From NCBI RefSeq assembly GCF_017876515.1, contig NZ_JAGIOC010000001.1:2914001-2978000 (forward strand): 64,000 nucleotides of DNA, read 5' to 3'. Positions 47,555 to 63,706 of the stretch are shown here, piece by piece; the first letter of the stretch is position 1; each line of letters starts with the position of its first letter. Source of the stretch: Brachybacterium fresconis (GTDB lineage: Bacteria > Actinomycetota > Actinomycetes > Actinomycetales > Dermabacteraceae). A program made the translations under genes and the position numbers. A model generated the notes under the pieces. It saw nothing but the letters and a program-made list of their open reading frames with translations. It did no database searches and was not told the origin of the DNA.

Positions 47555-50500
47555 TCAGACCTCGGGCGGCTTCTCCACGAAAGCCCTGTCGGGCTGGTCC
47601 TCCCGACGGACCTTTCGCATGATCACGCCCTTCGGCGCCGCCGAGTACGGGAAGCTGATCGAGAGGTGTACGGCGACGTCCTCCGGCGGCAGGCTCGACC
47701 CCGCCGGGAAATCGGAGAGCTTCGTCCCCGACTTCGGATCGAAGTCACCGGAGAAGCTCAACAGGAGACCGCCCCGTCTTTCTGCGGCGAGCTCCTCGGC
47801 GAGCTCGCCACCCTGACCCATCGCGTCGGGGAGCATCGCGATGCGTTCGACAGCGGGGCGCTGACGCCTGGACGATCCCGAGAAGCCGTCTCGATCGCGA
47901 CGACGGTTACGGGTGATGAAGTCGAGCTCCACGTCCGGATGGCCCGCGACGGTCCCGGGGAGCACTTGACGGCCGCCCTTCAGCTGCGGGACCACGACGC
48001 CGAAACTCGTCAACTTCCCGGAGTCGATGAGCCCCCGGAAGAACTCCTCGTCGGGTCGGTACATCCCGCGACTGATCCACGGCATCACCGAGAACAGCTC
48101 GAGAACACGCTCCGCAGGGACTGTCCCGAAGTGCGCTCCGTAGGGATGGCCGGCGCCGGCATCGGTCAGGAAGGCCTTGTCGTCGGTCGGTGAAACGATC
48201 TCGCCGAGCGAGCGCACGAGACCGAGAGCGTTCTCCACGGCGCGACGGTTGCCGTTGCCGTTCCCGCGGGGTGCCTGGAATGGGTAGTCCTGGAGTCGTC
48301 CGCCGATGCCCTTCGAGGTGATTTCGCTGTTGTACATCTTGCTGGGGCTGGTCGGTTTGAGCCACGGGAGCCTCTGGACCACGAGGGGTGGGACGTCGAT
48401 GGGTAGCACGCGGGGGGACCCGTCATCGTTGAACCCCGCGTACTGGTCCAATTCGACACGGAAGTCCTCCTCGTCGCGTGCTATCGAAGTGAAGGCCTCG
48501 TACAGGTCCACGCCCCCGGGGACTCCCCGCCGCTCGATCTGGGATCCGAGATATACGCGCACGAGGTCGCGGTAGCCCTTGCGGTAGCCAAACCACCGCC
48601 CCATTTGCATGAGGGTGTCCGCGGCGAGCGTCACGCGCGTGTACACGGAGACGGTCAGGCCCTCGACGGTGAAGCCTCTGCTGAGCTTTGCGCCACCGAC
48701 GAGGATTTTCCAGACGCTCCGCTTCTCGAAGGCAATGTCCTCCTTGGCGTAGTCGGCGTCCTTGGACCCGTTGACGAGCACGACCGGTGAATCGCCGCGC
48801 TCGATGAGACGCACGGCCGGGCCGATGTACGGCCAAAGCTCGTCGAACGTCGGGACAGGGGCTCCCTCCTCTGCACGGGCTCTCGATACCTCGACGAAGT
48901 CCTCGACCCAGAGTGCGCGGAGGCGAGCCTTTGTCGAGGGAACGCCGTAAGCGTTCCTACGCCAGAGATCTTTGAGTTCCTGCTGGGTGTCCGAGTGCAC
49001 TCCCGTGGACTGGGACTCGTGGACCAGCATCGTGTGGTGGCGGTACTTCCCGAACCCTTGCTCCTCCCTCAAGAGCTTCGTCGCGCCTGTGAGGACATAG
49101 GAGTCGAGGGCATCCCGCAGTGCCTTCTCGCGATCAGCCTCGGAATCGAGCGGGACGGGGCGATGGAACGCGGCCCGGTTGGAATGCCGAGGGGTGTCGT
49201 CGATAGGCGATTCCAGGTCGTGGAGCTCCTTGGCACCCATGTACTCCGGAGATGTCTTCAGAGAGAGGATGAAGTCCTTCGGGAAGATGTCGTGGTCGTC
49301 CTCCATGTCCACGAAGACATTGGCGAACGGTGTCGCCGTGTACGCGACGTACTGGGAGCGCGGGAGTGTCCGGAGCATGTCGGAGATGTGCCCATTGATC
49401 GCAGTGCGTTCCTTCTCCTCCGCGGTCTTGCTCGTGCGCTTCGTCCGTTTGGTGTTGATCGACGCCTGATCTGCCTCGTCGTCGATGATCAGTGTGGGAA
49501 CGTCCTCGAGCTTGGTGCGGATCTTGGCGAGGTCGCCTGCGAGTTTCTTGAGGACGCTCGAGTTCTTCTTCATGATCGCCAGCCGGACGTTGACCCGGGG
49601 GAGGTTCGCGGCGTCGTGCAGCGGGAGCATCGGGAAAGGAAGGTTGTTCTGGAAGTCCAGAGCGTCAAGACCGGTCTTCAGTGCCCTGTAGTCGAACTTG
49701 TTGTTCGTCAGGCGCGTGATCCACGGGACGTCGATGTGGTCGAGGGGTTCTGGTGTTTCGAGGAAGTTTCCTTCTTGCCAGTCAGCGTCCTCCGTCGAGG
49801 CGTAGTCGTGGGTACCAGCCAGCTCGGCGAGCCGCGCCGCGGCCTCGCTCTTCTCCCGGTCCGACGTCGCATCCTTCTTAGCTTGTTCGGCCGCGAGATA
49901 GTCCTGGAACTGACCCTGAAGAATGTTCTCGCGTCCGACGAGCTCCATGTCCAGTCGTTTCTGCGTCTGTGAGCGTAGGTTGTCATAGGTGCCAGTTAGG
50001 ACGATGACGAGCTTGTAGCCGGCGTCGATTGCCTTGGCCAGAACCCCGGTGAAGTTGGCCGTCTTCCCGCTCTGCACGTGTCCGACGACGAGTCCCTTGG
50101 TCTGCCAGATATCGGGGTCCGACGGATTTGCGAGGCGCTCCACGATCTCGTCCGTCGCCAGATCCAGGCCCATGATCGCGTCGGGGTCGAAGTTCTTTCG
50201 CGCCAGGAGTTCCCGGTAACGTGGCCAGTAGTGCCCCTGCAGAGACTCGGGTGAGTACCACTGCGACCATTCCTGCTTTTTGGAGATGACTGTGGGGGAG
50301 TTGTCCTTCAGGTGGAAGAACGAGGACAGCTGCCGGACCGAGGTCTCCTCGAGGCCGAGCGCCTTGTAGATCTGGGCACGCCGCTCGGGCGTGAACGGCT
50401 CGGTCTCACCACCGGTGACTTTTTCGTGGAGGGCCGGCGCGGCGTTCCAACTGTTAAGCAGCAGATGGAAGGCGCGCTGCACTGGGTCGTTCGCATCCCC

Positions 50501-50653
50501 CGGAGTGAGCCTCCTGACGAGGTCGGTCTCAGCGAGAGGATCCAGATCGTCGTCCTCGAGCTGCCGATCGATCGCTCGGAGCAGGTCCTTGGGCCGATCG
50601 CCCGGGAGCTGCTTGATGGCGTCGAGCACGGACCGGCTGATGACGTCAGTCAA
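47555..50653 (-). CDS. Z1-domain helicase-like protein of MutL/MORC-linked RM system
   Basis: 1032-aa protein of the Z1 group, a divergent superfamily II helicase-like ATPase known only from restriction-modification islands with MutL/MORC ATPases. Walker A is VGHVQSGKTANFTG (about residue 194), Walker B IIDDEAD (about 392), then YTATPFANVF (about 439) as motif III and MQMGRWFGYRKG later. The TTG at 50653 is chosen: AGGAGG is five bases upstream, embedded in the end of the PD-(D/E)XK gene, which it overlaps by eight bases. The role in restriction is inferred from family neighbourhoods; biochemistry is unknown to me. Confidence 0.85.
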   Translation of the reverse strand: MTDVISRSVLDAIKQLPGDRPKDLLRAIDRQLEDDDLDPLAETDLVRRLTPGDANDPVQRAFHLLLNSWNAAPALHEKVTGGETEPFTPERRAQIYKALGLEETSVRQLSSFFHLKDNSPTVISKKQEWSQWYSPESLQGHYWPRYRELLARKNFDPDAIMGLDLATDEIVERLANPSDPDIWQTKGLVVGHVQSGKTANFTGVLAKAIDAGYKLVIVLTGTYDNLRSQTQKRLDMELVGRENILQGQFQDYLAAEQAKKDATSDREKSEAAARLAELAGTHDYASTEDADWQEGNFLETPEPLDHIDVPWITRLTNNKFDYRALKTGLDALDFQNNLPFPMLPLHDAANLPRVNVRLAIMKKNSSVLKKLAGDLAKIRTKLEDVPTLIIDDEADQASINTKRTKRTSKTAEEKERTAINGHISDMLRTLPRSQYVAYTATPFANVFVDMEDDHDIFPKDFILSLKTSPEYMGAKELHDLESPIDDTPRHSNRAAFHRPVPLDSEADREKALRDALDSYVLTGATKLLREEQGFGKYRHHTMLVHESQSTGVHSDTQQELKDLWRRNAYGVPSTKARLRALWVEDFVEVSRARAEEGAPVPTFDELWPYIGPAVRLIERGDSPVVLVNGSKDADYAKEDIAFEKRSVWKILVGGAKLSRGFTVEGLTVSVYTRVTLAADTLMQMGRWFGYRKGYRDLVRVYLGSQIERRGVPGGVDLYEAFTSIARDEEDFRVELDQYAGFNDDGSPRVLPIDVPPLVVQRLPWLKPTSPSKMYNSEITSKGIGGRLQDYPFQAPRGNGNGNRRAVENALGLVRSLGEIVSPTDDKAFLTDAGAGHPYGAHFGTVPAERVLELFSVMPWISRGMYRPDEEFFRGLIDSGKLTSFGVVVPQLKGGRQVLPGTVAGHPDVELDFITRNRRRDRDGFSGSSRRQRPAVERIAMLPDAMGQGGELAEELAAERRGGLLLSFSGDFDPKSGTKLSDFPAGSSLPPEDVAVHLSISFPYSAAPKGVIMRKVRREDQPDRAFVEKPPEV

Positions 50654-51635
50654 GGGGGACCTCCTGGAGGAGAGTGGCGATCTCGGGACCGGGTACATCG
50701 TGTCGTAGAGGGCTGACATCGACGCGGTAGGCGACGTCCTGGCCGATCAGACCCGCGTTCGGGACGACGGTGTCGACGCGACGCCGGGTGATCGCCGGGA
50801 ACTGGTCGTCGATCGGGTAGCTCCGGGGTGCCGTCCGTTGCACGTATCGCTTCGTGTAGAGCTCGGCGTCGGCCTCTCTCCAGCCCACTGCCTCGAGTGC
50901 GCGCTCCACGTCCGCACCGTGAGCTCCGGCTGCTTCGACGGTACGGCGTGCCAGGAGGGTCAAGGACTCACCGGTGCCGCGGCCGGCAGGCGTGAACTGC
51001 ATGGAGATCAGCCAGAGTGCGCGCCCGTAGGTCGGCTCGAGTTGGTCGAGTCCGTGTACGACGTGCTTCCTCTCCTCGGAGAGGGTGGTCTTCACCTCGA
51101 GGTCGTAGGCCTCGAGCGAGAAGTCGTGTTCCTCGGCCTCCGGTCCGAGCCAGGCCTCGATCGCGTGCTCGATACCGAGCGTGGAGAAGAGATGCAGGAG
51201 CACGGTGAGCTCACCGATGAGTCCCGTTTCCTGTGAGGGGGAGAGACGTCGTCGGGCCCGCAGCAGGTTCCGGAACTGCTCGACCGCTGCGGTCAGGGCG
51301 TGCGTGTAGGAGTCGCCGGTGTCGGTCTGCCGAACGACGGCGTATGCCAGGGCGTACGCGGCGTCCGGGGCGTCTTCCGTCGAGACAGTCAGGACGTAGC
51401 GCGCGGGGTCCTCGGACTCGTCGAGTTCGATGCTGACGTTCTCGAGGTCCTTGGAGTCCTCGAAGGTGCCGTCCGCTGGGGAGGCCAGGACGATCTCGCG
51501 TCGGCGGGGGTCGATCGTGAGGAGATGGTCACCATTCACGCCGTGCGGCAGGAGGGAGGTCTCGTCGATGGAGAGGTAGTCATCCAACGCCTCGGGGGAG
51601 AGGGACGTCGTCTGGCCTCGGACGGGCTCTGTCAT
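50646..51635 (-). CDS. PD-(D/E)XK nuclease-like protein
   Basis: 329-aa protein of the PD-(D/E)XK superfamily found beside Z1 and MutL-type genes. The nuclease core is complete by eye: Glu142 in GLIGELTVL, Asp171 in EEHDFSLEAYD, Glu180-x-Lys182 in DLEVKTT. It probably supplies the DNA cleavage activity of the system. ATG 51635 is chosen because GTGGAG lies six bases upstream; a GTG at 51668 overlapping the previous stop (GTGA) is a possible alternative that adds VNDNYDEVEFP. It overlaps the Z1 start by eight bases. Confidence 0.85.
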   Translation of the reverse strand: MTEPVRGQTTSLSPEALDDYLSIDETSLLPHGVNGDHLLTIDPRRREIVLASPADGTFEDSKDLENVSIELDESEDPARYVLTVSTEDAPDAAYALAYAVVRQTDTGDSYTHALTAAVEQFRNLLRARRRLSPSQETGLIGELTVLLHLFSTLGIEHAIEAWLGPEAEEHDFSLEAYDLEVKTTLSEERKHVVHGLDQLEPTYGRALWLISMQFTPAGRGTGESLTLLARRTVEAAGAHGADVERALEAVGWREADAELYTKRYVQRTAPRSYPIDDQFPAITRRRVDTVVPNAGLIGQDVAYRVDVSPLRHDVPGPEIATLLQEVPLD

Positions 51636-51664
51636 CGGGAACTCCACTTCGTCGTAGTTGTCGT

Positions 51665-53194
51665 TCACTTCTTCTTGAACTTCCGGCGTCGACGCTGCTC
51701 CTCGGCCTCTGCGGCCAACCACAATGACTCCTGCATCGTCTCCATACGCAGCTTCTGCGCGACACCTACGTACTGTCCGGAGAAGAAGTCGGCGGTCAGG
51801 AGATACACCAGCGTCCGCGTGAGCGGGCCGCTCTTCCCGTCGGCGACGGGCTCCCCGCTCACCAGTTCATGGAATCGTTTATTGATCGTCAGGATCTGCG
51901 CATCCCGATCGACCTCGAAGAACCTTCGACCGGTGATGCGTCCCCACTGCACCGTGAACTCCTCCGCGTCTTCACGAAGGTGCCCGCGCTCCTCGAGGTT
52001 CCGGCGGACCTCGGTGGGGATCCCCGATGCCGGTGTGAAGTCAAGGGGACGCCGGCTCCGGCTCCGAGACGCCCGATCCTGCTGCCTCGCGGCGGTCTGG
52101 AAGTCGCGGAACACCGTGCCGTCGGGGGCCGTGGCGCTGTGGAGGGCGTTCCGGAGTGTGGAGTCGAACTCGACGCCGGACTTTTCCGGGTTGATGCGTG
52201 CGTGGTTTTCGACGTCGTCGATGTCCAGACGGATACGAGCGAAGCGAAGGTCCTCCGAAGGAACGAGCACCCCGTTCCAGCCGCCGACCTGGAGGAGGCG
52301 ATCCCGGCGGTAGACGAAGAATCCCTGTCGCCCCTCTTCACCCCCCATGTCGAGCCGGTAGTTGGGGCTGGTCCGGTCCACGTAGGGAACGACGTGCGCG
52401 CTGAAGGAGAACTTGGCGTCGGGGAGCGAACTGTGGAAATCCTTGGGGTACTCGCTGGCCGGGTCCTCCGAGTAGGTGAACGGGTCCAGCGGCTCTACCG
52501 GGAACTCCATGCCGATCTCGCCGAAATCTTCGTCGTAGGTGTCTACGACCACCGATGGGACACCATCGCCCAGGAGCCGGTGGTGACGGGTCCCGAGGCT
52601 GGCGGCGACGTTCCGGAGAGTGGCATCGAGCCAACTGTTCTGCGCGTTCTGGTCCGGGTCCTGGGGAAAGGCGCGTACGTCGTTCCATTCGATCACCGTT
52701 CCGTGGTGCAGCGGCTCGGAGAGGGAGATTGCGTCGAGGTGGTTGATGACGGAGTCCGCCGAGTAGTCGGACACCCGGGGAGAACCTCCTTGCGACGGGG
52801 AATGTCGCATCTTTCGCCCCACGGGCGTGGCCCCGTCCTTGTGGGAGAAGACGAGGAGGGCGTCGGCCTGGCTGAGCGAGGCGGCCTTGAAGCCGACACC
52901 GAAGTGACCGAGTTCCTTGAGACCGTAGTCGCGGGTCGCCCCCATGACCATCGCCTCGTCGACTTCTTCAGCCGACATACCGGGGCCGTCGTCGATGATC
53001 TGCAGAGCCGTCGCGGCGCCGCCGCGCAGTAAGAATCTGATCCGGATCAGGCGCGCGCCGACGGAGACGGAGTTGTCAACGATATCGGCGATCGCACTCT
53101 GCAGGGAGTGATGCGCACCGATGTACCGGGCTAGGGACGGGTCCGGAGGGACGTCCCTCTCCTTCGTGATCCAGAGTTCCGTGTCGTCGGTCAT
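51665..53194 (-). CDS. GHKL (MutL/Hsp90-type) ATPase, MORC-like
   Basis: 509-aa ATPase. The GHKL motifs are intact: IADIVDNSV with Asn41 (magnesium), IIDDGPGM with Asp68-69, and GHFGVGFK (residues 96-103) as the ATP lid. ATP-driven dimerisation like a clamp is expected. It is related to the MutL/MORC families that accompany Dcm and Vsr in restriction islands, and here it would couple recognition to the Z1 and nuclease partners. ATG 53194 follows GGGAGAGA. The basic tail (EQRRRRKFKKK) may contact DNA. It is the first gene of a three-gene overlapped unit. Confidence 0.88.
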   Translation of the reverse strand: MTDDTELWITKERDVPPDPSLARYIGAHHSLQSAIADIVDNSVSVGARLIRIRFLLRGGAATALQIIDDGPGMSAEEVDEAMVMGATRDYGLKELGHFGVGFKAASLSQADALLVFSHKDGATPVGRKMRHSPSQGGSPRVSDYSADSVINHLDAISLSEPLHHGTVIEWNDVRAFPQDPDQNAQNSWLDATLRNVAASLGTRHHRLLGDGVPSVVVDTYDEDFGEIGMEFPVEPLDPFTYSEDPASEYPKDFHSSLPDAKFSFSAHVVPYVDRTSPNYRLDMGGEEGRQGFFVYRRDRLLQVGGWNGVLVPSEDLRFARIRLDIDDVENHARINPEKSGVEFDSTLRNALHSATAPDGTVFRDFQTAARQQDRASRSRSRRPLDFTPASGIPTEVRRNLEERGHLREDAEEFTVQWGRITGRRFFEVDRDAQILTINKRFHELVSGEPVADGKSGPLTRTLVYLLTADFFSGQYVGVAQKLRMETMQESLWLAAEAEEQRRRRKFKKK

Positions 53195-53413
53195 GAACTG
53201 TCTCTCCCATGCTCTGAGTGGCTGTCTTCGGCACCGAGCGTCCGGTCGTTGTCCGAGACGACGCGGGAGACGGAGTCGTCGAATCCGTCGCCATGCTCGG
53301 CGAGTCTCATTACCGAGACGGTCGTCCGGGCAGGATTTTCTGAGGCTATCGCTTGGTGCTGACTCGCGACGACCGGTCTCGGCCGTCGCCCGGGGCAAGG
53401 AACCGGTGGCTTA

Positions 53414-54463
53414 TCAACTGAGCTCGTAGCGGTACTGCACCGGGACCAAGGACGAGATCGAGGGTTGCCAGCCTCTACGGGCGTCGAGATCTCCGTCGGA
53501 CGTGATCATCTCGGTACCTTCACGCCAGCAAGGGATGTCGTGTACAAGAACCAAGTCCGTCGGAGCCCGGTAGATGTCGTCGACCGCGGCCGATGACAGA
53601 TCGACGGCTCGCACGCGTTCGGTGCTGCCTCGCACGATCACCTGGCGGTCCGCTCCGCCGCGCGCGGGTGACAGAAGGAGGTCGAACGACCTTGAGGGAC
53701 CCACGTCGGTGACGAGCGACCCGTCGGCCTCCAGGTGAGCTTTCACCTGTCGCAGCGCTCGGAGCTCCACGGCGTGCCGGAAGGTAGCGTCGCCCAGGTC
53801 TCCTGCCTCACGGGCCCTCCGGCGGTCCAGGCGGGTCTCGACGGCCGCCTTACCGGCTCGCTCCGCGGTCAGGACGAACTCGTTGTGGGCGTCAGAGAGG
53901 TTGGCGGTCGGGAGCAACTCGGGGAGGTGTTCGAAGAGCGCTGCAGGGAACTTCGACAGGTACGCGCCTTGGTGGACACGGATCTCCCTTCCCTGCCCGT
54001 ACGGGTCGAAAGGGAAGAGGAGCGATTGCTTCCAGGTGTGCCGTCGGTCACGAACCCTCTTGGTAAGGGACGACTTGAGATCGAAGATCTTCTTGCGACG
54101 CTCGTGGAGCATCGTGCGGGTTAGCGGTTCCGGGATCTCGGTGAAGTCACGGAGTAGAGCGGCGCGGCCAGGGAGAGGGTCTGCGACTTCGTACTCGACC
54201 GCCTCGGTGGGGAACGGGAGACCGTTCACGATCGAGTACCCGACGAAGCCCTGGACCGCATGGTGAGGCCCTGTCGCCCAGTGGAGGACGACGTCGCCGT
54301 CGCGCACCATGTCCACTGTGGCGTGGAACGGCATGTCGGTCCCGTCCCGGCCACGGTCGTACGGAGCGAGGAGCCGGGTGCCGAATTCCGGGCGTGCGAT
54401 GGCCTCCATCCAGAAGCGCTCTTCGGGATCGTCCTCCCACCAGTACGACTTCTGTGCGCTCAT
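53414..54463 (-). CDS. Island protein with DUF3883-like C-terminus, catalytic Lys missing
   Basis: 349-aa protein not recognised as a whole. The N-terminal 100 residues (YWWEDDPEERFWMEAI, DGDVVLHWATG, VQGFVGYS) look like an EVE/PUA-type modified-base reader. Residues about 190-330 resemble DUF3883, a restriction-endonuclease-like domain (helix HNEFVLTAERAGK, then FDLLLSPARGG and VHDIPCW), but the usual VEVKGT strand reads VIVRGS, so the Glu and Lys expected in an active nuclease are gone. It may be an inactive adaptor or a reader for modified cytosine. Both domain calls are inference. It lies 23 bases after dcm. Confidence 0.6.
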   Translation of the reverse strand: MSAQKSYWWEDDPEERFWMEAIARPEFGTRLLAPYDRGRDGTDMPFHATVDMVRDGDVVLHWATGPHHAVQGFVGYSIVNGLPFPTEAVEYEVADPLPGRAALLRDFTEIPEPLTRTMLHERRKKIFDLKSSLTKRVRDRRHTWKQSLLFPFDPYGQGREIRVHQGAYLSKFPAALFEHLPELLPTANLSDAHNEFVLTAERAGKAAVETRLDRRRAREAGDLGDATFRHAVELRALRQVKAHLEADGSLVTDVGPSRSFDLLLSPARGGADRQVIVRGSTERVRAVDLSSAAVDDIYRAPTDLVLVHDIPCWREGTEMITSDGDLDARRGWQPSISSLVPVQYRYELS

Positions 54464-54486
54464 CGGTTCTCCCGAGTGGTCGTCGG

Positions 54487-55593
54487 TCAGTCGAAGAAGG
54501 GCTCGAGATGCTTACCGATTGCTGTGCCGAGCGGGATCGGGACGGCGTTCCCGATCTGCTTGACGATCTCGGTCATCGGCCCCACGAACTTGTACCCCGC
54601 TGGGAAGCCCTGGAGCCGCGCCCCCTCCCACGCGGTGATCGCACGATCCGCGGTCGGATGGAGATAGCGACCCTTCTCGGGCTTGGTGAACTCGGTACGG
54701 ATCGTCACGGAGGGCTTGTCCCACCGGAGCCGGCCCATCACGTCACCGCTGCCGGAAGTGTGCTTTTTCCACGCCTCGCACTTCAGGTCTTCGGGCAGGT
54801 TCATGCGATTGCCGCCCTCGGGGATCTCCGCGAACCGGTCCAGGGAGAGCTGGGAGTAGTTCCGTCGCACGTGTAGCTCCTTGGCGAGGAACGGTCCCGG
54901 AGTCCGCTTCCCGTTCACGTCGGTGAAGACGTCTCCCGGGAGCTCGGCGAGGGCACCGGGGAGGGCCCCGATCGCCGACTCCACATCCTTCCAGCCCACG
55001 GGTTCGGGATGAGACTTCGCCGGAAAGCCGGGATCGGTCTGGTCACGTCGGTGACCGATGACGATGACCCGCTTCCGTACCTGCGGTGCTCCGTACTCGG
55101 CGGCGTTCAGGACATGATGCTCGATCTCGTAGTTCTCGAGCTCCCCGTCCGGCTCGGTCATCCGCTGGAGCAGCGGGAACTGCGGCGACGTGAGGAACTG
55201 AGGGACGTTCTCGAGGACGAAATAGCGCGGCCTCGCCCGCTGCACCACCTCGGCATACGTGCGCCAGAGCTCGTTGCGGGCGTCGTCTGCGCGCTGCTTG
55301 CCGAGCGTCGAGAACCCCTGGCACGGGGGGCCACCGATCACGAGATCGGCGGCTGGTACCTCCTCGTCGCGGAGCCAATCCTGGATCGGTCCACAGTAGA
55401 CGTCGGCGTCATGGTTCAGGCGGTAACCTGCTGCAGCACGAGGCTCCATCTCGACGGCCTTCAGCACCTTGTACCGGTCGCTCGCCCGATGGAACCCCTC
55501 GCTGAGTCCACCGACGCCGGCGAAGAGGTCGATGATGGTGATGGCATCGCCTCGCACCGAGGTGTCCGGGGAAGAGGTGAGTGACGAGGTCAT
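54487..55593 (-). CDS. DNA (cytosine-5) methyltransferase
   Basis: 368-aa C5-cytosine methyltransferase with a full motif set: DLFAGVGGLSEGF (residues 22-34), GGPPCQGFS with catalytic Cys91, ENVP (128-131), QVRKRVIVIG (about 172), and QIGNAVP (346-352). It transfers methyl from S-adenosylmethionine to a cytosine in a specific DNA sequence. The target-recognition region (about 200-300) is short. Companions Vsr and the GHKL/Z1/nuclease set mark it as the modification arm of a restriction system rather than a solitary enzyme. Target sequence unknown. Its ATG overlaps the vsr ATG on the other strand (CATG, 55591-55594). Confidence 0.95.
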   Translation of the reverse strand: MTSSLTSSPDTSVRGDAITIIDLFAGVGGLSEGFHRASDRYKVLKAVEMEPRAAAGYRLNHDADVYCGPIQDWLRDEEVPAADLVIGGPPCQGFSTLGKQRADDARNELWRTYAEVVQRARPRYFVLENVPQFLTSPQFPLLQRMTEPDGELENYEIEHHVLNAAEYGAPQVRKRVIVIGHRRDQTDPGFPAKSHPEPVGWKDVESAIGALPGALAELPGDVFTDVNGKRTPGPFLAKELHVRRNYSQLSLDRFAEIPEGGNRMNLPEDLKCEAWKKHTSGSGDVMGRLRWDKPSVTIRTEFTKPEKGRYLHPTADRAITAWEGARLQGFPAGYKFVGPMTEIVKQIGNAVPIPLGTAIGKHLEPFFD

Positions 55594-56140
55594 GTCAACA
55601 GATCCTAGCCGGCGGGAGGGTCAGCTGAGCGCAGACTCGCTGACCGAGAATGAGCGTCCGACCTCGTCCCTTTCTTCCGAGGAGCCGGTCGAGGAGACGG
55701 TCCGAGCACGGATGGCCGTCCAGCGCCGGCGAGACACGGCTCCGGAACTCGCGCTGCGCCGTTCGCTCCATCGTGCAGGACTCCGTTTCCGAGTCGATCA
55801 CCCTCTGCCGGGGATCCCCAGGCGACGAGCCGACGTGGTGTTCACGCGGGTGAATCTTGCGGTGTTCGTCGACGGGTGCTTCTGGCACGACTGCCCCGAG
55901 CACGGGACCAGGCCGAAGTCCCGGGCTGCGTGGTGGGAGGAGAAGCTCCGTCGGAATGTCGAACGCGATCATGACACCGACACACGGCTCGGCGAGGCGG
56001 GATGGACGGTCCTCCGATTCTGGGAACACGAGGACATGGCGCAGGCTGCGATCGAGGTGCTACGCACGTACCGATTCCTTCGCGTCACCGGGCAGCGCCG
56101 GCGGGGACCTTCTTCGACCACAGGTGGTCGAAGTGGGTGA
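55592..56140 (+). CDS. vsr: Vsr-type very short patch repair endonuclease
   Basis: 182-aa nuclease that nicks beside T:G mismatches produced when 5-methylcytosine deaminates. Family motifs are clear: DTAPELALRRSLHRAGLRFRVD, catalytic Asp81 in RRADVVF, FVDGCFWHDCP (zinc/catalytic His99), WWEEKLRRNVERD and FWEHED. It is divergent from dcm with overlapping start codons and converges on the helicase gene, whose stop it overlaps by 56 bases on the opposite strand. The first 35 residues lie upstream of the conserved domain. Confidence 0.92.
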   Translation: MSTDPSRREGQLSADSLTENERPTSSLSSEEPVEETVRARMAVQRRRDTAPELALRRSLHRAGLRFRVDHPLPGIPRRRADVVFTRVNLAVFVDGCFWHDCPEHGTRPKSRAAWWEEKLRRNVERDHDTDTRLGEAGWTVLRFWEHEDMAQAAIEVLRTYRFLRVTGQRRRGPSSTTGGRSG

Positions 56141-59100
56141 ACGCCAGCTTCGTCCCGAAGTTATCGGCGTTGTCCTGGACGTTCACGATGTCCACGCGCT
56201 CGGTCCCCCCATTCTGGGGCCCTCGCAGCCCGCGCCCGATCATCTGCAGGTAACGGTTCGGGACGAAGGTGGGACGGCACACGTACACCGCGGAGACGTC
56301 GGGGACGTCGAAGCCCTGCGAGAGGACGTTGAAGTTCGTGAGGACCTTCAGGTCTCCTCTTCTGAAGCGTTCGACCGCTGCGCGGCGGGCCCCCGGGGAC
56401 ATGTCAGCGTGGACCGCTACCGACTCGATCCCCTCGTACGAGAACACGGCCGCGAGTGCGTGGGCATGCTGGACCGAGGCGGCGAAGAGCAGCGTTCGCT
56501 GGTCCTCCCCCCGGGACAGGATCGAGCGGATGATCTGGTTGTTGCGCTCGGTGGAGCGGGCGACTGCAGCGAGATCGAGCTGGGCCTCACTCATCCGAGT
56601 GAGGGGTGAGGAGATCTCCTCGTCCACCTCCTGCGCAGCACGCGTCTTGGGGAGGGCGATGCCGTCGAGTATGTGGTGGTCCACCTGGGACAGGTATCCG
56701 TTGGCCTGGAGGTACTGGGTCGCGTCATCGGGCCCGAACTGCGAGGGTGTCAGGAGGTTCCGGTCGAAGATCTCGACGAGGCTCTCCGTGCTCCGTTCGT
56801 CCGTCCCCCGGTAGGGGGTCGCGGAGAGACCGAGGACGGGGGTACGGGCAGTCCCTCTCCTCTTGAAACGCGAGAGCATCTGCTTCGTGGTGCGGGCCTC
56901 GGCGCCGTGGGCTTCGTCGATGATCACGATTCCCGGACGTTGGAACCAGCCATCCTTGGCCTTCGTGGACTCGAACATCCTCGCCGCGGTCGCCGGCGTG
57001 GACACGATGACATGGAGTCCTGCGTCCTGAGTGACGACCTCGCGAGGGTTACCGTCCCAGAACCGGCTCACCACCATGTCGGTGTTCTCGCTCCCGTGCG
57101 CCCGCCAGACGGCCATCCAGGTGCCGACTGCCTGCTCGCACAGCTCCTTGGTCTGGGCGATCCACATCACGTGGCCCTTCAGTGGCTCCTCCGACCCCGC
57201 GACGTGACGTACCACGGACTCGACTGCGACGCGTGTCTTGCCGGCGCCCGTGGGCAGCTGCACCATTGCACGGCGATCGTCCTGACCGGAGAGCACGTCC
57301 CGGATCAGGCCACTGACGTCCTCCTGGAAGGGGTGTAGCGGCTTGAGCCGAACCGGCCCTGTCACGACCTCCTGGGCGGGAAGGCGCACGTACCGCTCGC
57401 CCGCGAACTCGGGATCGATCCCGAGTTGCTCCACGAAATCCTTCGCGTCCCTACTTCCGCTGAACCGTGTCGGTCCCGCGGCGTCCCCACGCTCCTGGAG
57501 CGACTTGCTCAATTGACGGACGACGTCCGCGCCGTACATTGCCTTGGCGACCTCGAAGAGTTCCTTGGCGGAGAGCTCCCGGCTGAGGTACTCCTCGACC
57601 ATCGCTCGGGTCTGTTGGGGGACGACGGCGTTGATGGAGTCCGCTCCGAAGTAGGCGAGGAGCTTCTCCCACTCGTTCTGCTTCGCGGACGCTTCCTTGA
57701 GGCGGGCGTCTTCGAGGGCCTTGCGCATGAGTAGGCGGGCGTCCTCCACCGACCTGCTCGAGTCCACGGCGCGGAGGGCGTACTGGAGGACATTGCTCTT
57801 GAGCTCACGGTCGACGACCAGCAGCTCCTGCGCGCGGAGGAACCGCGCCTTCTTCGAGACGTCCTCAACCACGACGTCGTCGAAGTCGTTGGTCGTCCGC
57901 AGAAGAACCGAGTCCGCCAGGGCGACACGGAGCCGCTTGAGCCTCGGGTCGACGACACCGATGTGCGGGTGCAGCTCGGCCATGTGGACCGGGGAGTCGT
58001 AGCTGTCCTCGGGGAGGTACGAGTCGAAGGCGATGTCGACCACGTCCAGGGACCACTTCTCACCAAGAGCGCGAGCGAGCGCTTCGTCGTCCACCTGGAT
58101 GACGCCGACGTCCTGGTGGGTGAGTAGATGGTCCGTCGTCGCCTTTCTGGAGGTCACCACACAGAACTCACTCTCCACGAAGCGTCGCTCGTCCTTGTCG
58201 AGTGCGCGGAGGCGAGCCGGGCGCCGAGCGCCCTGCGTCGCGGCGTGTGCGTACAAGCGATGCACGGAGGTCAGGTTCCGCATCGCGTCGACGACGGTGC
58301 CGAACAGGAAGTCCCACGCCTTCGCGGTGACCATTGGAGTGAGTACCGGCCGCGCGAAATGGCCGAGATCATGAGGAATGGGCAGGAACTCCCGCGGGAA
58401 GGACGACGCGACCTCTTGCCCGCTCGTGCAGTGCTCGACCGGGAGGGCGCCCAGCGGGGTCTCCGCAACCCCGTACTCGAGAACCCACCACGCATCGGGC
58501 GATAGCACACGTGTGTCCCACGTCCTGTAAGAGGCCGTCGTGCGCAAACTGGCTTCCGACCCTTGCCGCTCGACGAGCAGCTTGACGATCCGCTCCCTGG
58601 TGCGGGTGGAGGCGTGCGCCAGGTCCAGCAGTCCTGGCGTGAGAGTCGTGGGGGAGAGGTCAATATCTCCGGCGCTGATCTGGTAGCCGAGGCCGCGCGC
58701 ATCGGTGAGCGCGGTGCGTTTCACCGAGTCCCTCCAGGCCCTTTCGAGGCTTGGGTCGTGAGCTAGCGGAGCGGTGTCGGGCAGGTTCTGGCGAACGCCC
58801 CACCGTGCGAGCAGTCCGAGGTCCGGGCCGTGGAACGCGTCGTCCAGCAGGAGGCTCGGATCGGTTCCTCGGGAGCTCGGGACGAAGACGGACCCGATAC
58901 GCCACGCACTCGTGACCGGCTTCCACGCACCGTCGAGCATCTTCACGAACACCTTGCCCGGATCCGGGAAGCTCTGCGATAGCAGCGCCTCGACCGACCG
59001 TCGGTCCCGCAGCTGGTGGGCGGTCTCCCACAGGTTCTTGAACGCCTGGGCGTTAGGGGACTGCACCGCAGCCCTGATGACCCGGCGGAGCCGGCCCTCG

Positions 59101-60857
59101 TCGTCGTGGCCCGTGATCCCGAGCAGCTTGAGATGCGGAAGGCAGACCGGATCGTGTGCGACCTGCGGGAGGACGACGGGCCCGGACGGCGCATCGTCCT
59201 CCGGGTCCGGAAGAGTCAGCCTGCCGGCTTCCGGAGCCTCCAGCCTCCCTTCGAGGGTCGGGATGAACGCAGCGCGGTACACCTCGGAGTGCCATGCAGC
59301 GTAGGAGCGGAGGACGACCGAAGCGAACGTCAACGCGTTTCGGTACCCCGTCATCGTCCTCGACGCGGCAAGTCCTTCGACCAGTTCGCGGGGCTCCTTC
59401 GCCGCCACTCCCGCGAAGTCCAGCAGTCTGCGCACCTTGGCGTGCCGGCCTGTCCCGTCGTTCTTGAGCGCGGACTCGTGAAGCCATGGGGCGAGGGTCC
59501 CGGATTCTTCGTGAGCGAGGGCGTACCAAGCATCACGGGCATCGCGGAGCTCGGTGTCCTTCACTGCTTCGAGAAGGGGTGGTACGAGGAGTTCGTCGGC
59601 GCGCCGGAACGTCCCGTCCAGGTCGGGGAAGCAGGAAGTGGTGGCTACGGCACGCATGACGGCGTCGTTGCTCACCTCGTCCGCCCAGCTGTCGACTTCC
59701 CGGTCGCGGGACGGCAACCAGCCGAAGTGCCGGCTCGGTGCCGACGGCTCCGCGACCTCCGGGAGCCCGGAGGCGATCACCGCGGGAAGGGTCCGCGCGA
59801 GGATCTCCTCGTTGTACTCCCCATTGATGATGTCGTGGCGGTCGTCGGCCGTCTGGAACTGTGCATTCACGATCCCGCGGACGGACAGGGTGCTCGCGGT
59901 GGGGAAATGTGACCAGAGCTGTCCCTTGGATGTACTTGAACCATCAGCGGGAATCGCCCACTGCACAGCCAGTTCTTCGCGACTGTTCCGGACACCGGCG
60001 AAGGCTGCTGCCCTCGGCGACGGGTGGTGCTCGGCGGAGAACACGCGCCAGCGGACGGTGCCGGCCCGGGGTGTGCCCTCCGAATGCGACTCAGCGGTGT
60101 GGAGATCAAGCGTCGTGTCGTCGAGCCGGTCGACGCGCCATTCCCTCCGGGTCCCGGACCGACGATCGTCGAGCTCGAGCCGCCCGATGCTGTCGGAGAA
60201 GAGGACGAACTCGCCGCTGAAGGTGGCGATGGAGTGGGAGACCTGCTCTGCCACGCCGTCCACGAGGGGGAGTCGGACGACCGTGTCGGCCCACGCCATC
60301 ATCTCGGTGAGGACGACGTCCGACTTCGCCTCGGATACCGGATCGAAGATCTCGGCGATTCGGAGAACGGGGAGGTGTTCGGCGCCATACTCCACGGCCG
60401 CTGTCGCGAGGGCCCGCTGCGTGATCTCCTCCGACCAACGGAAGGACCCGGAGCGCGAGAGAATCTCCGGTCGGTCACTGATCTCAAGGACCGACTTGAA
60501 GCCCAGGCCGTAACGGCCGATCTCCTTGCCACGCTTGCTCGATCGATGGGCCATCATGATCGCGGTGACGCCCGAGCTCTTGAAGGGTTGGCCTTCGTTC
60601 GCGCAATAGAGGGTGTCGTCGGTGAGGACCATCTGCAGACGTCCTTCGAGCCCGAGCATCGCGTCGGCGGCGTTCTGGACGAGCTCGTTGAGCTGCGCCC
60701 GGCGATAGCCGCTCTCCACGACCGATCGCTCGATGCCGTACTGCTCGTCGAGGAGCCCCGGCTGGGCCTTGAAGCTGTTCACGGCCTTGCGAGATTGCTC
60801 CCGGACCTCGTCAGCGACCTGTGACGTTCCGGCGTCCCACGACTTTTCCTGCGGCAA
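56085..60857 (-). CDS. Giant GHKL ATPase fused to SF2 helicase
   Basis: 1590-aa protein. N-terminal sacsin-like GHKL ATPase: RRAQLNELVQNAADAM (about residues 52-67) and GRYGLGFKSV (about 111-120). A long middle (about 200-1150) has no recognised domain. C-terminal superfamily II helicase: LPTGAGKTR (about 1200), DEAH (about 1314), SATPYRG (about 1346), QMIGRGLRG (about 1541). An ATP clamp joined to a translocase could sense and move on target DNA. Start TTG 60857 follows AGGAG nine bases upstream. The stop overlaps vsr in antisense. Fusions of this kind occur in defense islands; the activity of this one is unknown. Confidence 0.88.
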   Translation of the reverse strand: MPQEKSWDAGTSQVADEVREQSRKAVNSFKAQPGLLDEQYGIERSVVESGYRRAQLNELVQNAADAMLGLEGRLQMVLTDDTLYCANEGQPFKSSGVTAIMMAHRSSKRGKEIGRYGLGFKSVLEISDRPEILSRSGSFRWSEEITQRALATAAVEYGAEHLPVLRIAEIFDPVSEAKSDVVLTEMMAWADTVVRLPLVDGVAEQVSHSIATFSGEFVLFSDSIGRLELDDRRSGTRREWRVDRLDDTTLDLHTAESHSEGTPRAGTVRWRVFSAEHHPSPRAAAFAGVRNSREELAVQWAIPADGSSTSKGQLWSHFPTASTLSVRGIVNAQFQTADDRHDIINGEYNEEILARTLPAVIASGLPEVAEPSAPSRHFGWLPSRDREVDSWADEVSNDAVMRAVATTSCFPDLDGTFRRADELLVPPLLEAVKDTELRDARDAWYALAHEESGTLAPWLHESALKNDGTGRHAKVRRLLDFAGVAAKEPRELVEGLAASRTMTGYRNALTFASVVLRSYAAWHSEVYRAAFIPTLEGRLEAPEAGRLTLPDPEDDAPSGPVVLPQVAHDPVCLPHLKLLGITGHDDEGRLRRVIRAAVQSPNAQAFKNLWETAHQLRDRRSVEALLSQSFPDPGKVFVKMLDGAWKPVTSAWRIGSVFVPSSRGTDPSLLLDDAFHGPDLGLLARWGVRQNLPDTAPLAHDPSLERAWRDSVKRTALTDARGLGYQISAGDIDLSPTTLTPGLLDLAHASTRTRERIVKLLVERQGSEASLRTTASYRTWDTRVLSPDAWWVLEYGVAETPLGALPVEHCTSGQEVASSFPREFLPIPHDLGHFARPVLTPMVTAKAWDFLFGTVVDAMRNLTSVHRLYAHAATQGARRPARLRALDKDERRFVESEFCVVTSRKATTDHLLTHQDVGVIQVDDEALARALGEKWSLDVVDIAFDSYLPEDSYDSPVHMAELHPHIGVVDPRLKRLRVALADSVLLRTTNDFDDVVVEDVSKKARFLRAQELLVVDRELKSNVLQYALRAVDSSRSVEDARLLMRKALEDARLKEASAKQNEWEKLLAYFGADSINAVVPQQTRAMVEEYLSRELSAKELFEVAKAMYGADVVRQLSKSLQERGDAAGPTRFSGSRDAKDFVEQLGIDPEFAGERYVRLPAQEVVTGPVRLKPLHPFQEDVSGLIRDVLSGQDDRRAMVQLPTGAGKTRVAVESVVRHVAGSEEPLKGHVMWIAQTKELCEQAVGTWMAVWRAHGSENTDMVVSRFWDGNPREVVTQDAGLHVIVSTPATAARMFESTKAKDGWFQRPGIVIIDEAHGAEARTTKQMLSRFKRRGTARTPVLGLSATPYRGTDERSTESLVEIFDRNLLTPSQFGPDDATQYLQANGYLSQVDHHILDGIALPKTRAAQEVDEEISSPLTRMSEAQLDLAAVARSTERNNQIIRSILSRGEDQRTLLFAASVQHAHALAAVFSYEGIESVAVHADMSPGARRAAVERFRRGDLKVLTNFNVLSQGFDVPDVSAVYVCRPTFVPNRYLQMIGRGLRGPQNGGTERVDIVNVQDNADNFGTKLAFTHFDHLWSKKVPAGAAR

Positions 60858-61067: not shown

Positions 61068-62147
61068 GTGACGACCACACCCCGGCAGACCGTCCTCTCG
61101 GCGACGGACCATCTCGCAGCGCGACTCGACGGCATCATCGCGGCCGTGCTCGCCCCTCATTTGAACGGCTTGGAATGGACGTCAGTCCTTGTCGAGCTCG
61201 ACAAGCTCAAGGGGAGGAGGCCGTCGGTCACCACGGCGAACGACCTTCAGTCCCAGCTGAGGATGCTGACAGAACGACTCGGAGGCCTCGGATTCCCGTT
61301 CGACGACGAATCGCGGACGGTGAGCACTGTGGCGAGCGACCTCCGTGCGGTGCGGAGGAACCTCGCTCACACGAACCCCTTTACGACGTTGGAGGCATGG
61401 AGGGCTGCTGACCACTGCGTGCGCCTGCTCGAAGCACTCGGCGATGCAGACGGCCTCATCCCCGCGACGGAGATCCGACACCATGCGTTCCTGGAGTACG
61501 CCAAGGAGTCGGGACTCGGCCCCGCCCCGGCACTTCCGGAAGGTGATAAGGCCGCCGAGACGTCGCACGGCCCGGTGGGAGTCGGATCTGCCACGGCCGA
61601 GCAGAGCCGGCGATCGATGGAGGAGGTCGTGCGCGGGGACCGAAGTGAGCTCGTCTACGAGGAGTGGGTGGGCCACCAGGCAGGGGATGTGACGGTTCTC
61701 GACACGATCGCGCGCAATGAATCGAAACTGAAAGTCCGAGCCCTCGCGGAGGAGATCGTCGACCTGGAGTGGCCCATCGCGCTCGCCCGGCTCGCCAAAC
61801 TGGTCGGGAGGGGCTTCGGACTCGGGAAAGTCGTCTCGGGGCGACAGAGGAAGATCGAACACCAGATCCGCAACGCCAACTTGTTCATCGATGAGCACGG
61901 ATTCGTGTGGTCCACTGTGGCCGACGCGGAGGACTGGACAGAGTATCGGGTCGACAATGGGGACCGACCACGCGACTTCAAGGAGATCAGCCCACGAGAG
62001 GTCGCCAATGCTCTCGCTCGGGTGCGGGAGGAAGACCCGTCGCTCGACGACGACGATCAGGAGCTCGCGGTGCTGCGCGCGTTCGGACGGGAGAGGAAGA
62101 CCCAGGGTGTACGCCACCAGCTGGATCTCGCATGGGAGCTGCTCTAA
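61068..62147 (+). CDS. Swt1-like HEPN domain plus DUF3320-like domain protein
   Basis: 359-aa two-part protein. Residues 1-130 form a helical HEPN domain of the Swt1 type, with the candidate RNase motif Arg96-x4-His101 (RRNLAH). Residues about 220-355 match the DUF3320 pattern usually seen at the C-terminus of large DUF4011 helicases: a winged-helix-like EEIVDLEWPIALARLAKLVG, then DFKEISPREVANALARV and VLRAFGRERKTQGVRHQLD. HEPN proteins in defense islands are commonly RNA-cutting effectors; here it could be an abortive-infection arm. GTG 61068 with GAAGGAG upstream. Divergent from the giant helicase and 20 bases before the IS. Confidence 0.75.
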   Translation: MTTTPRQTVLSATDHLAARLDGIIAAVLAPHLNGLEWTSVLVELDKLKGRRPSVTTANDLQSQLRMLTERLGGLGFPFDDESRTVSTVASDLRAVRRNLAHTNPFTTLEAWRAADHCVRLLEALGDADGLIPATEIRHHAFLEYAKESGLGPAPALPEGDKAAETSHGPVGVGSATAEQSRRSMEEVVRGDRSELVYEEWVGHQAGDVTVLDTIARNESKLKVRALAEEIVDLEWPIALARLAKLVGRGFGLGKVVSGRQRKIEHQIRNANLFIDEHGFVWSTVADAEDWTEYRVDNGDRPRDFKEISPREVANALARVREEDPSLDDDDQELAVLRAFGRERKTQGVRHQLDLAWELL

Positions 62148-62293: not shown

Positions 62294-63706
62294 GTGTCCC
62301 AGCCTACCTTGTTCTTCTACCCCCGTCCGCGCGTGGACATCGCTGAGGTCCCGGCGGTCTCGCAGGCGGGTGCGGTGCTGCTGACCGACACGCTCCATGC
62401 CACTGGCCTGGCCGCTTCGCTGCGCGAAGCGCTGGGTCCCTGGACGAAACCGCTGGCCGAGCATCACGCCGCGAAAGTCCTGCTGGACCTCGCGATGACT
62501 CTCGCGATCGGCGGGGAAGTCGCCCGCGACACTGACCTGCTGCGGTGCGAGCCGGGACTGTTCGGGTCCGTCGCCTCTGCGCCGACGATCTCCCGCACAC
62601 TCACTACCTTGGCCCAGGACGCCCCGGCGGTGGTCGAGGCGATCTCGAGGGCTCGCCGTGCCGCGCGCGAACGAGCCTGGACCATGGCCGGTGACCACGC
62701 CCCTGGCCACGGGGTCAGCGCGAAGAACCCGCTGGTCATCGACCTTGATGCCACACTGATCAACGTTCACAGTGAGAAGGAGCAGGCCTCACCGACGTTC
62801 AAACGCGGGTTCGGCTATCACCCTCTATGCGCGTTCCTCGATCACGGACAGGCCGGCACCGGGGAACCCCTCGCCATCGCCCTGCGCCCGGGCAACGCGG
62901 GATCGAACACCGCCGCCGATCACATCGCCGTCACGCGCGAGGCTCTCGCCCAGCTCCCGCCAGCCCTGCTGGGCCGGGGCGGGCGGGGGTCGAAGAAGAT
63001 CCTGATCCGCACCGACGGAGCCGGCGGCACCAAGGACTACATCCAGTGGCTGACCACGCGGCGTCTGGCCTACTCGGTCGGGTTCACCCTCCCCGCACAT
63101 ACTCCTGACCTGCTGAAACGAGTTGACGAAGCAGACGCGTGGACGCCGGCCTATGACAGCGACGATGACGGGATTCGAGACGGGGCCTGGGTCGCAGACC
63201 TCACCGGGCTGCTGGACCTCGCAGGCTGGCCCGACGGGATGCGCGTCATCGTGCGGAAAGAACGACCGCACCCCGGGGCACAGCTGCGAATCACTGACCA
63301 CGACGGGATGCGGATCACCGCGTTCGCGACCAACACCAGCCGCGGACAGCTCCCCGTTCTCGAGCTGCGTCACCGTCGCCGCGCGCGCTGCGAGGACCGG
63401 ATTCGCAACGCGAAGGACATGGGCCTTGAGAAGTTCCCGCTGCAGGGATTCGCGCAGAACCAGATCTGGTGCCAGATCGTCCAGCTCGCCTCTGAGCTTG
63501 TCGCCTGGATGCAGACCATCGCCTTCACCAGCGGCGACGCAAGGAGATGGGAGCCCAAACGACTCCGCGCGCGGTTGTTCGAGATCCCCGCGACGCTCGT
63601 GCGGCGCTGCCGACACAAGGTCCTCCACCTCGCCCGGCACGCCCCGGAAGCCTCCACCGTCCTGACCGGCGTCAACCGGCTCCGCACCGCCGTCGCCCAG
63701 ACCTGA
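62294..63706 (+). CDS. IS1380-family transposase
   Basis: 470-aa DDE transposase. The catalytic acids are likely the Asp in VIDLDATLINVHSEK, the Asp in LIRTDGAGGTKDY and the Glu in RCEDRIRNAKDMGLEKFP, which matches the IS1380 layout. Length is normal and the frame is intact, so the element may be active. Start is GTG 62294, with AAGGAG ten bases upstream. Confidence 0.93.
   Translation: MSQPTLFFYPRPRVDIAEVPAVSQAGAVLLTDTLHATGLAASLREALGPWTKPLAEHHAAKVLLDLAMTLAIGGEVARDTDLLRCEPGLFGSVASAPTISRTLTTLAQDAPAVVEAISRARRAARERAWTMAGDHAPGHGVSAKNPLVIDLDATLINVHSEKEQASPTFKRGFGYHPLCAFLDHGQAGTGEPLAIALRPGNAGSNTAADHIAVTREALAQLPPALLGRGGRGSKKILIRTDGAGGTKDYIQWLTTRRLAYSVGFTLPAHTPDLLKRVDEADAWTPAYDSDDDGIRDGAWVADLTGLLDLAGWPDGMRVIVRKERPHPGAQLRITDHDGMRITAFATNTSRGQLPVLELRHRRRARCEDRIRNAKDMGLEKFPLQGFAQNQIWCQIVQLASELVAWMQTIAFTSGDARRWEPKRLRARLFEIPATLVRRCRHKVLHLARHAPEASTVLTGVNRLRTAVAQT

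Follow-up and report, generated by a model that had tools for sequence, protein, structure and literature searches.

A single gene of Brachybacterium fresconis (assembly GCF_017876515.1, contig NZ_JAGIOC010000001.1) encodes a predicted protein of 1590 residues in which a sacsin-type GHKL ATPase is joined to a superfamily 2 (SF2) helicase. We named this fusion, located at 56085-60857 on the minus strand, SACHEL, and refer to its sacsin part without the helicase tail as the SAC module. The window is the whole stretch of 64,000 nucleotides that was analysed (contig positions 2,914,001 to 2,978,000), and coordinates are positions within it. The gene and its parts are as follows.

56085..60857, minus strand: SACHEL, whole gene (1590 residues, TTG start, AGGAG 9 nucleotides upstream)
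60258..60695, minus strand: sacsin-type GHKL ATPase head, residues 55-200 (P_loop_sacsin and PDB sacsin profile matches, intact motifs)
59568..60260, minus strand: segment shared with TmtA, residues 200-430 (TmtA profile; invariant D339-R340 and N349)
57708..59567, minus strand: middle of the SAC module, residues 431-1050 (length kept, sequence weakly conserved, no family match)
57363..57707, minus strand: pre-helicase segment, residues 1051-1165 (helicase-side matches start near here)
56088..57362, minus strand: SF2 helicase tail, RadD-like, residues 1166-1590 (LPTGAGKT, DEAH, SATP and QMIGRGLRG intact)

SACHEL is conserved along its whole length, with 39, 38 and 35% identity to its three best relatives, which indicates that it is a real gene. 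The head matches the NCBIfam family P_loop_sacsin (NF047352, a sacsin N-terminal ATP-binding-like domain) over residues 55-132 at 73.3 bits, where the cut-off is 50; Pfam SACS reaches 29.7 bits, slightly below its cut-off of 32.8. A profile of 48 family members, including the window's, matched the sacsin structures 5v44-5v47 of the PDB at residues 55-136 (best E 6.7e-9). At the other end, Pfam DEAD, ResIII and Helicase_C lie above their cut-offs over residues 1176-1545. Altogether 92 proteins of the SACHEL family were collected, including that of the window, and 88 of them were aligned for residue counts. The GHKL residues E58, N62, D65, G89, G114, G117, G119 and K121 are invariant in all 88 aligned proteins, and the helicase residues K1207, D1314, E1315 and H1317 in 86, the remaining two (L074 and L204) being without the helicase half. 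Strict motif patterns fail in a few relatives (for Walker A, in L051, L064, L067 and L122 of the 86 long proteins), not in the window. A preliminary description of this DNA had proposed two independent ATPases in one chain, with degeneracy of either core as the finding that would speak against it. Judged by these residues, neither core of SACHEL is degenerate, and both ATPase cores are intact. The same description considered a fusion of this kind unusual; it is instead the standard form of the family, in which 86 of the 92 proteins reach 1450 residues or more, that of the window among them.

Between the two ATPases, about 950 residues had been left unassigned. Because the PADLOC TmtA profile covers residues 12-424 (E 1.8e-48), this part shrinks to residues 430-1165; a long unassigned middle thus stands, although its length is 735 residues. 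The best TmtA model, 1538 positions long, was matched at positions 7-413 only. Within the shared segment, D339, R340 and N349 are each invariant in the 88 aligned proteins. In the accessible part of a study of sacsin, the region sr2 comes after the ATPase and carries an arginine that is compared with the Hsp90 middle domain (PMC3629688); R340, in the D339-R340/N349 segment, is likely the counterpart of this arginine. Mean column conservation is 0.59-0.73 over residues 36-140, 0.34-0.61 over residues 141-420 and 0.29-0.46 over residues 421-1050. In five genomes the helicase-side match starts at residues 1005-1053, and residues 1051-1165 seem to travel with the helicase part. Searches of the 48 members found no Pfam or NCBIfam family in residues 430-1165 beyond scattered chance-level matches in one or two members, and among PDB sequences compared with the 48-member profile there were, beyond sacsin, only Hsp90-type chains (in the head region) and one chance-level chain. 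Profile comparison detected no internal duplication of the middle. We therefore rejected the idea that the middle is a known domain, including the common set of helicase domains that the preliminary description had considered, for which Pfam, NCBIfam and the PDB sequences gave no match.

The distribution of the family was examined in two samples. The order sample contains 396 genomes from 110 genera, and all counts out of 396 refer to it. The second collection derives from an alignment-based search of named genome contigs, in which the best 80 of 168 relatives represent 79 distinct loci (a single-sequence search of these contigs yielded no relatives); gene counts in these loci apply within the examined flank only. 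The samples overlap, in that two rows of the order sample are identical to the named Pseudarthrobacter and Flavimobilis loci, which places the order within Actinomycetota, and at least L050 and L094 are in both. The 92 proteins do not include those of L046, L057, L088, L093 and L100, for which the rule used gave no start, or of L102 and L108, which have no SAC match.

SACHEL was found in 16 of the 396 genomes and in 13 of the 110 genera of the order. In all 15 SACHEL genomes other than the window's, DrmA lies on the same contig within 3 kb and DrmB is on the same contig as well, whereas the window's genome lacks both DrmA (searched at E <= 1e-10) and DrmB (DUF1998/MZB, searched at E <= 1e-5). 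DrmA is present in 37 of the 396 genomes and shared with SACHEL in 15, against 1.5 expected (hypergeometric P 2.6e-16, a guide only as the genomes are related). In 15 of the 16 SACHEL genomes, the contig with SACHEL also encodes a cytosine methylase within 14 kb; in the other, G028, the contig stops just past SACHEL. The usual order is SACHEL, then a UvrD-type or NERD helicase, DrmA and DrmB; the methylase gene precedes SACHEL, follows DrmB or lies a few genes away. The UvrD and NERD helicase profiles cross-match, and neither is matched in L081 and L084, two of the 67 loci with DrmA. DrmA together with DrmB accompanies 67 of the 79 named loci, including L076 (Acidobacteriaceae) and L088 (Dehalococcoidia), a methylase 61 and Vsr 43. 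Ten neighbours were tested in L030, L046 and L050, and the matches listed for them contained no DrmC, DrmD or DrmE model.

The DrmA matches of the order take two forms, one unbroken and one broken between profile positions of about 355 and 390; the broken form occurs in 18 genomes, 15 with SACHEL and three (G009, G116 and G145) without it. On viral contigs, the best 80 of 466 relatives correspond to 79 loci, 78 of which match only from residue 1050 on. The sole full-length relative among them lies on an IMG/VR contig (L125:7968-12671). Fourteen plasmid records match, of which p2MP alone covers the SAC part and 13 match only from residue 1067 on. In the plasmid loci L205 and L207, helicases resembling the SACHEL tail are separate genes next to genes for an ATP-binding protein, a PLD protein, a PAPS-reductase-family protein and a cysteine desulfurase.

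In the window, SACHEL is surrounded by the following genes.

55469..56140, plus strand: Vsr-type endonuclease, true start probably downstream of 55469 (NCBIfam vsr 117 bits, cut-off 97.85; DVVF, FWHDC)
54487..55593, minus strand: C5 cytosine methylase (Pfam DNA_methylase E 7.8e-59; PPCQ and ENV present)
53414..54463, minus strand: 349-residue protein, NOV_C relative (relatives near SACHEL carry NOV_C, PF13020)
51665..53398, minus strand: 577-residue MutL-like GHKL ATPase (MzaB-like, below cut-off)
50646..51722, minus strand: DUF4420 PD-(D/E)XK protein (MzaD-like, below cut-off; HDF and EVK present)
47555..50719, minus strand: Z1 SF2 motor protein (MzaC-like, below cut-off; GHVQSGKT, DEAD and TATP present)
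61068..62147, plus strand: Swt1-like HEPN protein, divergent from SACHEL (Pfam HEPN_Swt1 47.2 bits, cut-off 27.5)

The preliminary description placed a second, stand-alone GHKL protein next to SACHEL in a defence-type neighbourhood. Such a protein is present, but not directly adjacent: counted from SACHEL it comes fourth, with vsr, the methylase and the 349-residue gene in between. Its N-box reads DNSVSV, and as the altered position varies in some relatives too, we do not claim that this ATPase is degenerate. The idea that the window's Z1 motor is dead and that the SACHEL helicase compensates for it was rejected, since the Z1 P-loop is present. Among PADLOC models, the methylase matches DruM2 best (E 1.7e-92), and MTase_II also ranks above DrmMII (E 3.3e-50). 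Relatives of the HEPN_Swt1 protein occur at two SACHEL loci, L049 and L050 (L031 and L050 being one locus), and it is possible but unproven that the protein is a member of the window's system. A paper on HEPN domains treats, in its accessible part, both the sacsin and the Swt1-like HEPN domains (PMC3710099). The C-terminal half of the window's HEPN_Swt1 protein matches the end of anti-phage ProA, below cut-off. A DDE transposase (DDE_Tnp_1_4) is encoded at 62294-63706, beside the island.

Relatives of the 349-residue protein were found in G024, G099 and partly G358 among the 16 SACHEL genomes, and in L048, L049 and L050 among the 79 loci, all on contigs with SACHEL. The three relatives tested all match NOV_C (E 2.2e-8 to 7.7e-7) and keep the EVK motif, whereas the window's copy neither matches NOV_C nor keeps the motif. 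A resemblance of its N-terminus to EVE domains found no support in Pfam or the PDB. In G188, a genome of the window's genus, a 619-residue protein (L208:2480-4336) fuses a sacsin-type GHKL head to NOV_C, with SACS below its cut-off and NOV_C above; it lies near genes for Z1, DUF4420, Vsr and a methylase.

Two Arthrobacter loci carry a helicase-free form of the protein. In Arthrobacter sp. MA-N2 (L074) and on plasmid p2MP of Arthrobacter 68b (L204), the genes for methylase, SAC, GHKL, DUF4420 and Z1 follow one another in one direction with tight spacing. The sacsin proteins comprise 1117 and 1096 residues, respectively, and tblastn did not find the helicase part (residues 1051-1590) in either locus, so the SAC module is a natural unit, from which the helicase tail is separable. 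Identity between the SAC proteins of the two loci is 91-92%, so the loci count as one lineage. In L114, SAC and helicase are encoded by two overlapping open reading frames, possibly through a frameshift. A Z1 gene is also present in the examined flank of eight DISARM-like SACHEL loci (L059, L068, L078, L087, L103, L105, L107 and L113), six of which are from Streptomyces.

Phylogenetic trees were constructed for the SAC module (the 88 aligned proteins, omitting the four short or broken proteins of L111, L114, L118 and L123, and a constrained set of 20 of these rows under LG+G4), for Z1 (15 rows) and for the stand-alone GHKL protein (14 rows), the rows of the latter two being hand-chosen from 30 loci. 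In the SAC trees, L074 and L204 fall inside a Micrococcaceae group of DISARM context (support 100), and the window's protein is placed elsewhere. Forcing the three into a single clade in the 20-row set cost 118.5 log-likelihood units and was rejected (approximately unbiased test, p-AU 3.8e-70). In the Z1 and GHKL trees, the window, L074 and L204 belong to one seven-member cassette group (support 100), together with L223, L232, L225 and L227. The L223 and L232 cassettes have a methylase and Vsr, with no SACHEL within about 20 kb. In L225 (12057-15602) and L227 (12119-15880), HEPN_Swt1-DUF499 proteins of about 1180-1250 residues occupy the place beside GHKL-DUF4420-Z1 that SAC holds in Arthrobacter. 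With SAC, methylase and Vsr, or HEPN_Swt1-DUF499 found there, the slot beside the GHKL gene is variable in these seven cassettes. Two separate pairings of SAC with the Z1 cassette, or an older composite locus with differing losses, both fit these trees. The settings of the window and of Arthrobacter suggest that defence systems otherwise unrelated to each other share the sacsin protein as an exchangeable component.

We consider it very probable that SACHEL has a role in defence. With about even confidence, we propose that it is a component of a restriction-modification (RM)-like phage-defence system, in which the sacsin part would act as an exchangeable, ATP-driven recognition or loading unit and the helicase would be a separable tail. 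Methylases mark self DNA, and GHKL modules of the MutL/Hsp90 type close upon ATP. In the proposed mechanism, the methylase would mark host DNA and the sacsin module would act like an ATP-driven clamp of the Hsp90/MutL type. The GHKL head would bind ATP, its site completed by R340 from the next segment, and ATP binding would close the large recognition body (residues 430-1050) on an invader cue, candidates for which are a phage protein and DNA that is unmarked or single-stranded. The RadD-like tail would then load or open that DNA, which would pass to an interchangeable motor and nuclease set, either DrmAB or GHKL-Z1 with DUF4420 cutting. Vsr may repair deaminated 5-methylcytosine sites or nick, and the 349-residue protein, without its EVK motif, would be a reader at most. 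That SAC recognises or loads invader DNA, or answers a phage protein, and hands over to DrmAB or GHKL-Z1-DUF4420 seems to us about as probable as its opposite. The preliminary description suggested that two ATPases in one chain beside a second GHKL protein may define the sensing step; a role in sensing or loading would agree with partners being swapped while the sacsin part stays constant, and with the helicase-free form of Arthrobacter, but neither observation proves it. We put forward more tentatively, and as a somewhat doubtful whole, that a portable SAC recognition and loading unit has been traded among RM-like defences, that methylase-SAC has been coupled at least twice and independently to paraMORC-DUF4420-Z1 in replacement of DrmAB, either keeping its own helicase or lacking it, and that the pairing of sacsin-GHKL and NOV_C at these loci would be the prokaryotic source of the eukaryotic sacsin and NO VEIN architecture.

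Several observations weigh against the proposed RM-like system. Sensing, loading and hand-over are steps that we infer. Co-transcription of SACHEL with the methylase operon is unproven because vsr sits on the opposite strand between the two. DUF4420 is present in 42 of the 396 genomes and is shared with SACHEL in 4 of 16, against 1.7 expected (P 0.077); as this is little above chance across the order, the pairing of SACHEL with Z1 is rare. Besides the window's genome, 41 genomes of the order sample have DUF4420, and the DUF4420 neighbourhood was surveyed in 26 of them. The window's SAC module sits on a long end branch (1.3), its sister being L032 in the 88-protein tree and L047 in the 20-row tree. 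Finally, 12 of the 79 named loci have no DrmA in the examined flank. Three of these are L067 from Streptomyces, L106 from Gordonia and L074 from Arthrobacter; the other nine belong to other phyla or to Acidimicrobiia, with several on short contigs. The neighbours tested proved to be type I RM genes in L093 and housekeeping genes in L099, so the SACHEL protein may also act alone. In a rival reading, SACHEL would be a self-contained, Tiamat-like single-gene defence that travels in defence islands beside separate systems. The TmtA match across residues 12-424, the lack of DISARM genes in the examined flanks of some relatives, such as L093 and L099, and the antisense vsr would all favour it. We consider it unlikely, given that DrmA and DrmB adjoin SACHEL in 15 of 15 other genomes and in 67 of 79 loci, that the Arthrobacter operons are tight and run in one direction, and that the match to TmtA is confined to positions 7-413 of a 1538-long model.

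The window might instead be a decaying DISARM-like island that has lost DrmA and DrmB, with SACHEL as a leftover and the paraMORC-DUF4420-Z1 RM system working without it. Consistent with decay, DrmA and DrmB are missing from the window's genome alone among the 16 with SACHEL, the EVK motif of the 349-residue protein is not kept, and the related cassettes of L223 and L232 do without SACHEL. Against this, both ATPase core motifs of SACHEL are kept despite its deep divergence, which argues for lasting selection on the protein, and the same pairing forms a tight operon in Arthrobacter; decay appears slightly less probable still than a self-contained defence. MutL and Vsr are repair proteins, and the SACHEL tail resembles RadD, so that the fusion could serve DNA repair or housekeeping with RadD- or MutL-like partners rather than defence. 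However, the match to the NCBIfam RadD equivalog (81.8 bits) is far below the 720-bit cut-off, the family is patchily spread over 16 genomes and 13 genera, it keeps company with a methylase and DISARM core genes, and its SAC form is also plasmid-borne (p2MP), all of which make a repair function very improbable.

If SACHEL does act as proposed, a sacsin-like giant protein would regularly form one subunit of a DISARM-like subtype, for which our sampling is best in Actinomycetota. The motor and nuclease half of such defence systems would be exchangeable. Loci with and without the helicase, and with DrmAB or Z1, would then be natural experiments on which part distinguishes host from phage DNA, and the bacterial proteins would offer models for the sacsin ATPase cycle.

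The proposed system shares features with several known ones. As in DISARM, members of the SACHEL family usually have DrmA, DrmB and a cytosine methylase beside them; in this respect the window's genome differs, having neither DrmA nor DrmB. The accessible parts of two descriptions of DISARM name DrmA-E and methylases without a sacsin-type protein (PMC12458937, PMC9142583), and those of the former, the YprA/ARMADA preprint, contain no GHKL or Hsp90 term (PMC12458937). The available portion of the DISARM structure paper describes DrmAB as autoinhibited, with loading on 5'-overhang DNA and a damping effect of methylation, and leaves the role of the less-conserved components open (PMC9142583). A literature search found no paper joining "sacsin" and "DISARM", although most subscription journals were outside its scope and this is not proof of absence. 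RM operons with MORC/paraMORC, a Z1-type SF2 helicase, an NRE nuclease, Dcm and Vsr were described by Iyer et al. in 2008, according to the accessible text (PMC2292703). The window likewise has, at 47555-56140, adjoining genes for a GHKL protein, a Z1-type helicase and a nuclease of restriction-endonuclease fold, with a methylase and Vsr; DUF4420 would correspond to the NRE of that text, which names no additional subunit of the sacsin-type GHKL-helicase kind (no match to "sacsin" in the accessible part; PMC2292703). The 577-residue GHKL protein, Z1 and DUF4420 resemble MzaB, MzaC and MzaD of the MZA system, but at 103.8, 292.8 and 80.4 bits they are far below the curated cut-offs of 850, 1500 and 420. 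No other Mza model (AIPR and others) was among the PADLOC matches listed for eight window proteins, the only open reading frames searched.

PADLOC's TmtA, which we take to be Tiamat, shares with SACHEL the sacsin-type GHKL domain and the next segment; it differs in that the match is limited to the first quarter of the best model and the tail of SACHEL is a helicase. Tiamat is counted among the systems of unknown mechanism in the available part of one source (PMC10482375). With the SIRPT repeat of eukaryotic sacsin, SACHEL has in common the GHKL head, followed by a segment with an invariant arginine; at about 1000-1385 residues in the accessible description, SIRPT is similar in length to the SAC module (PMC3629688). 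A counterpart of srX/sr3 in residues 430-1050 would be hypothetical, and neither HEPN nor DnaJ was detected by Pfam in the SACHEL chain. Plant NO VEIN combines GHKL and NOV_C. The window has separate genes instead, its 349-residue copy being without a NOV_C match, whereas sacsin-GHKL and NOV_C proteins are encoded near each other in L048-L050 and are fused, as in NO VEIN, in L208.

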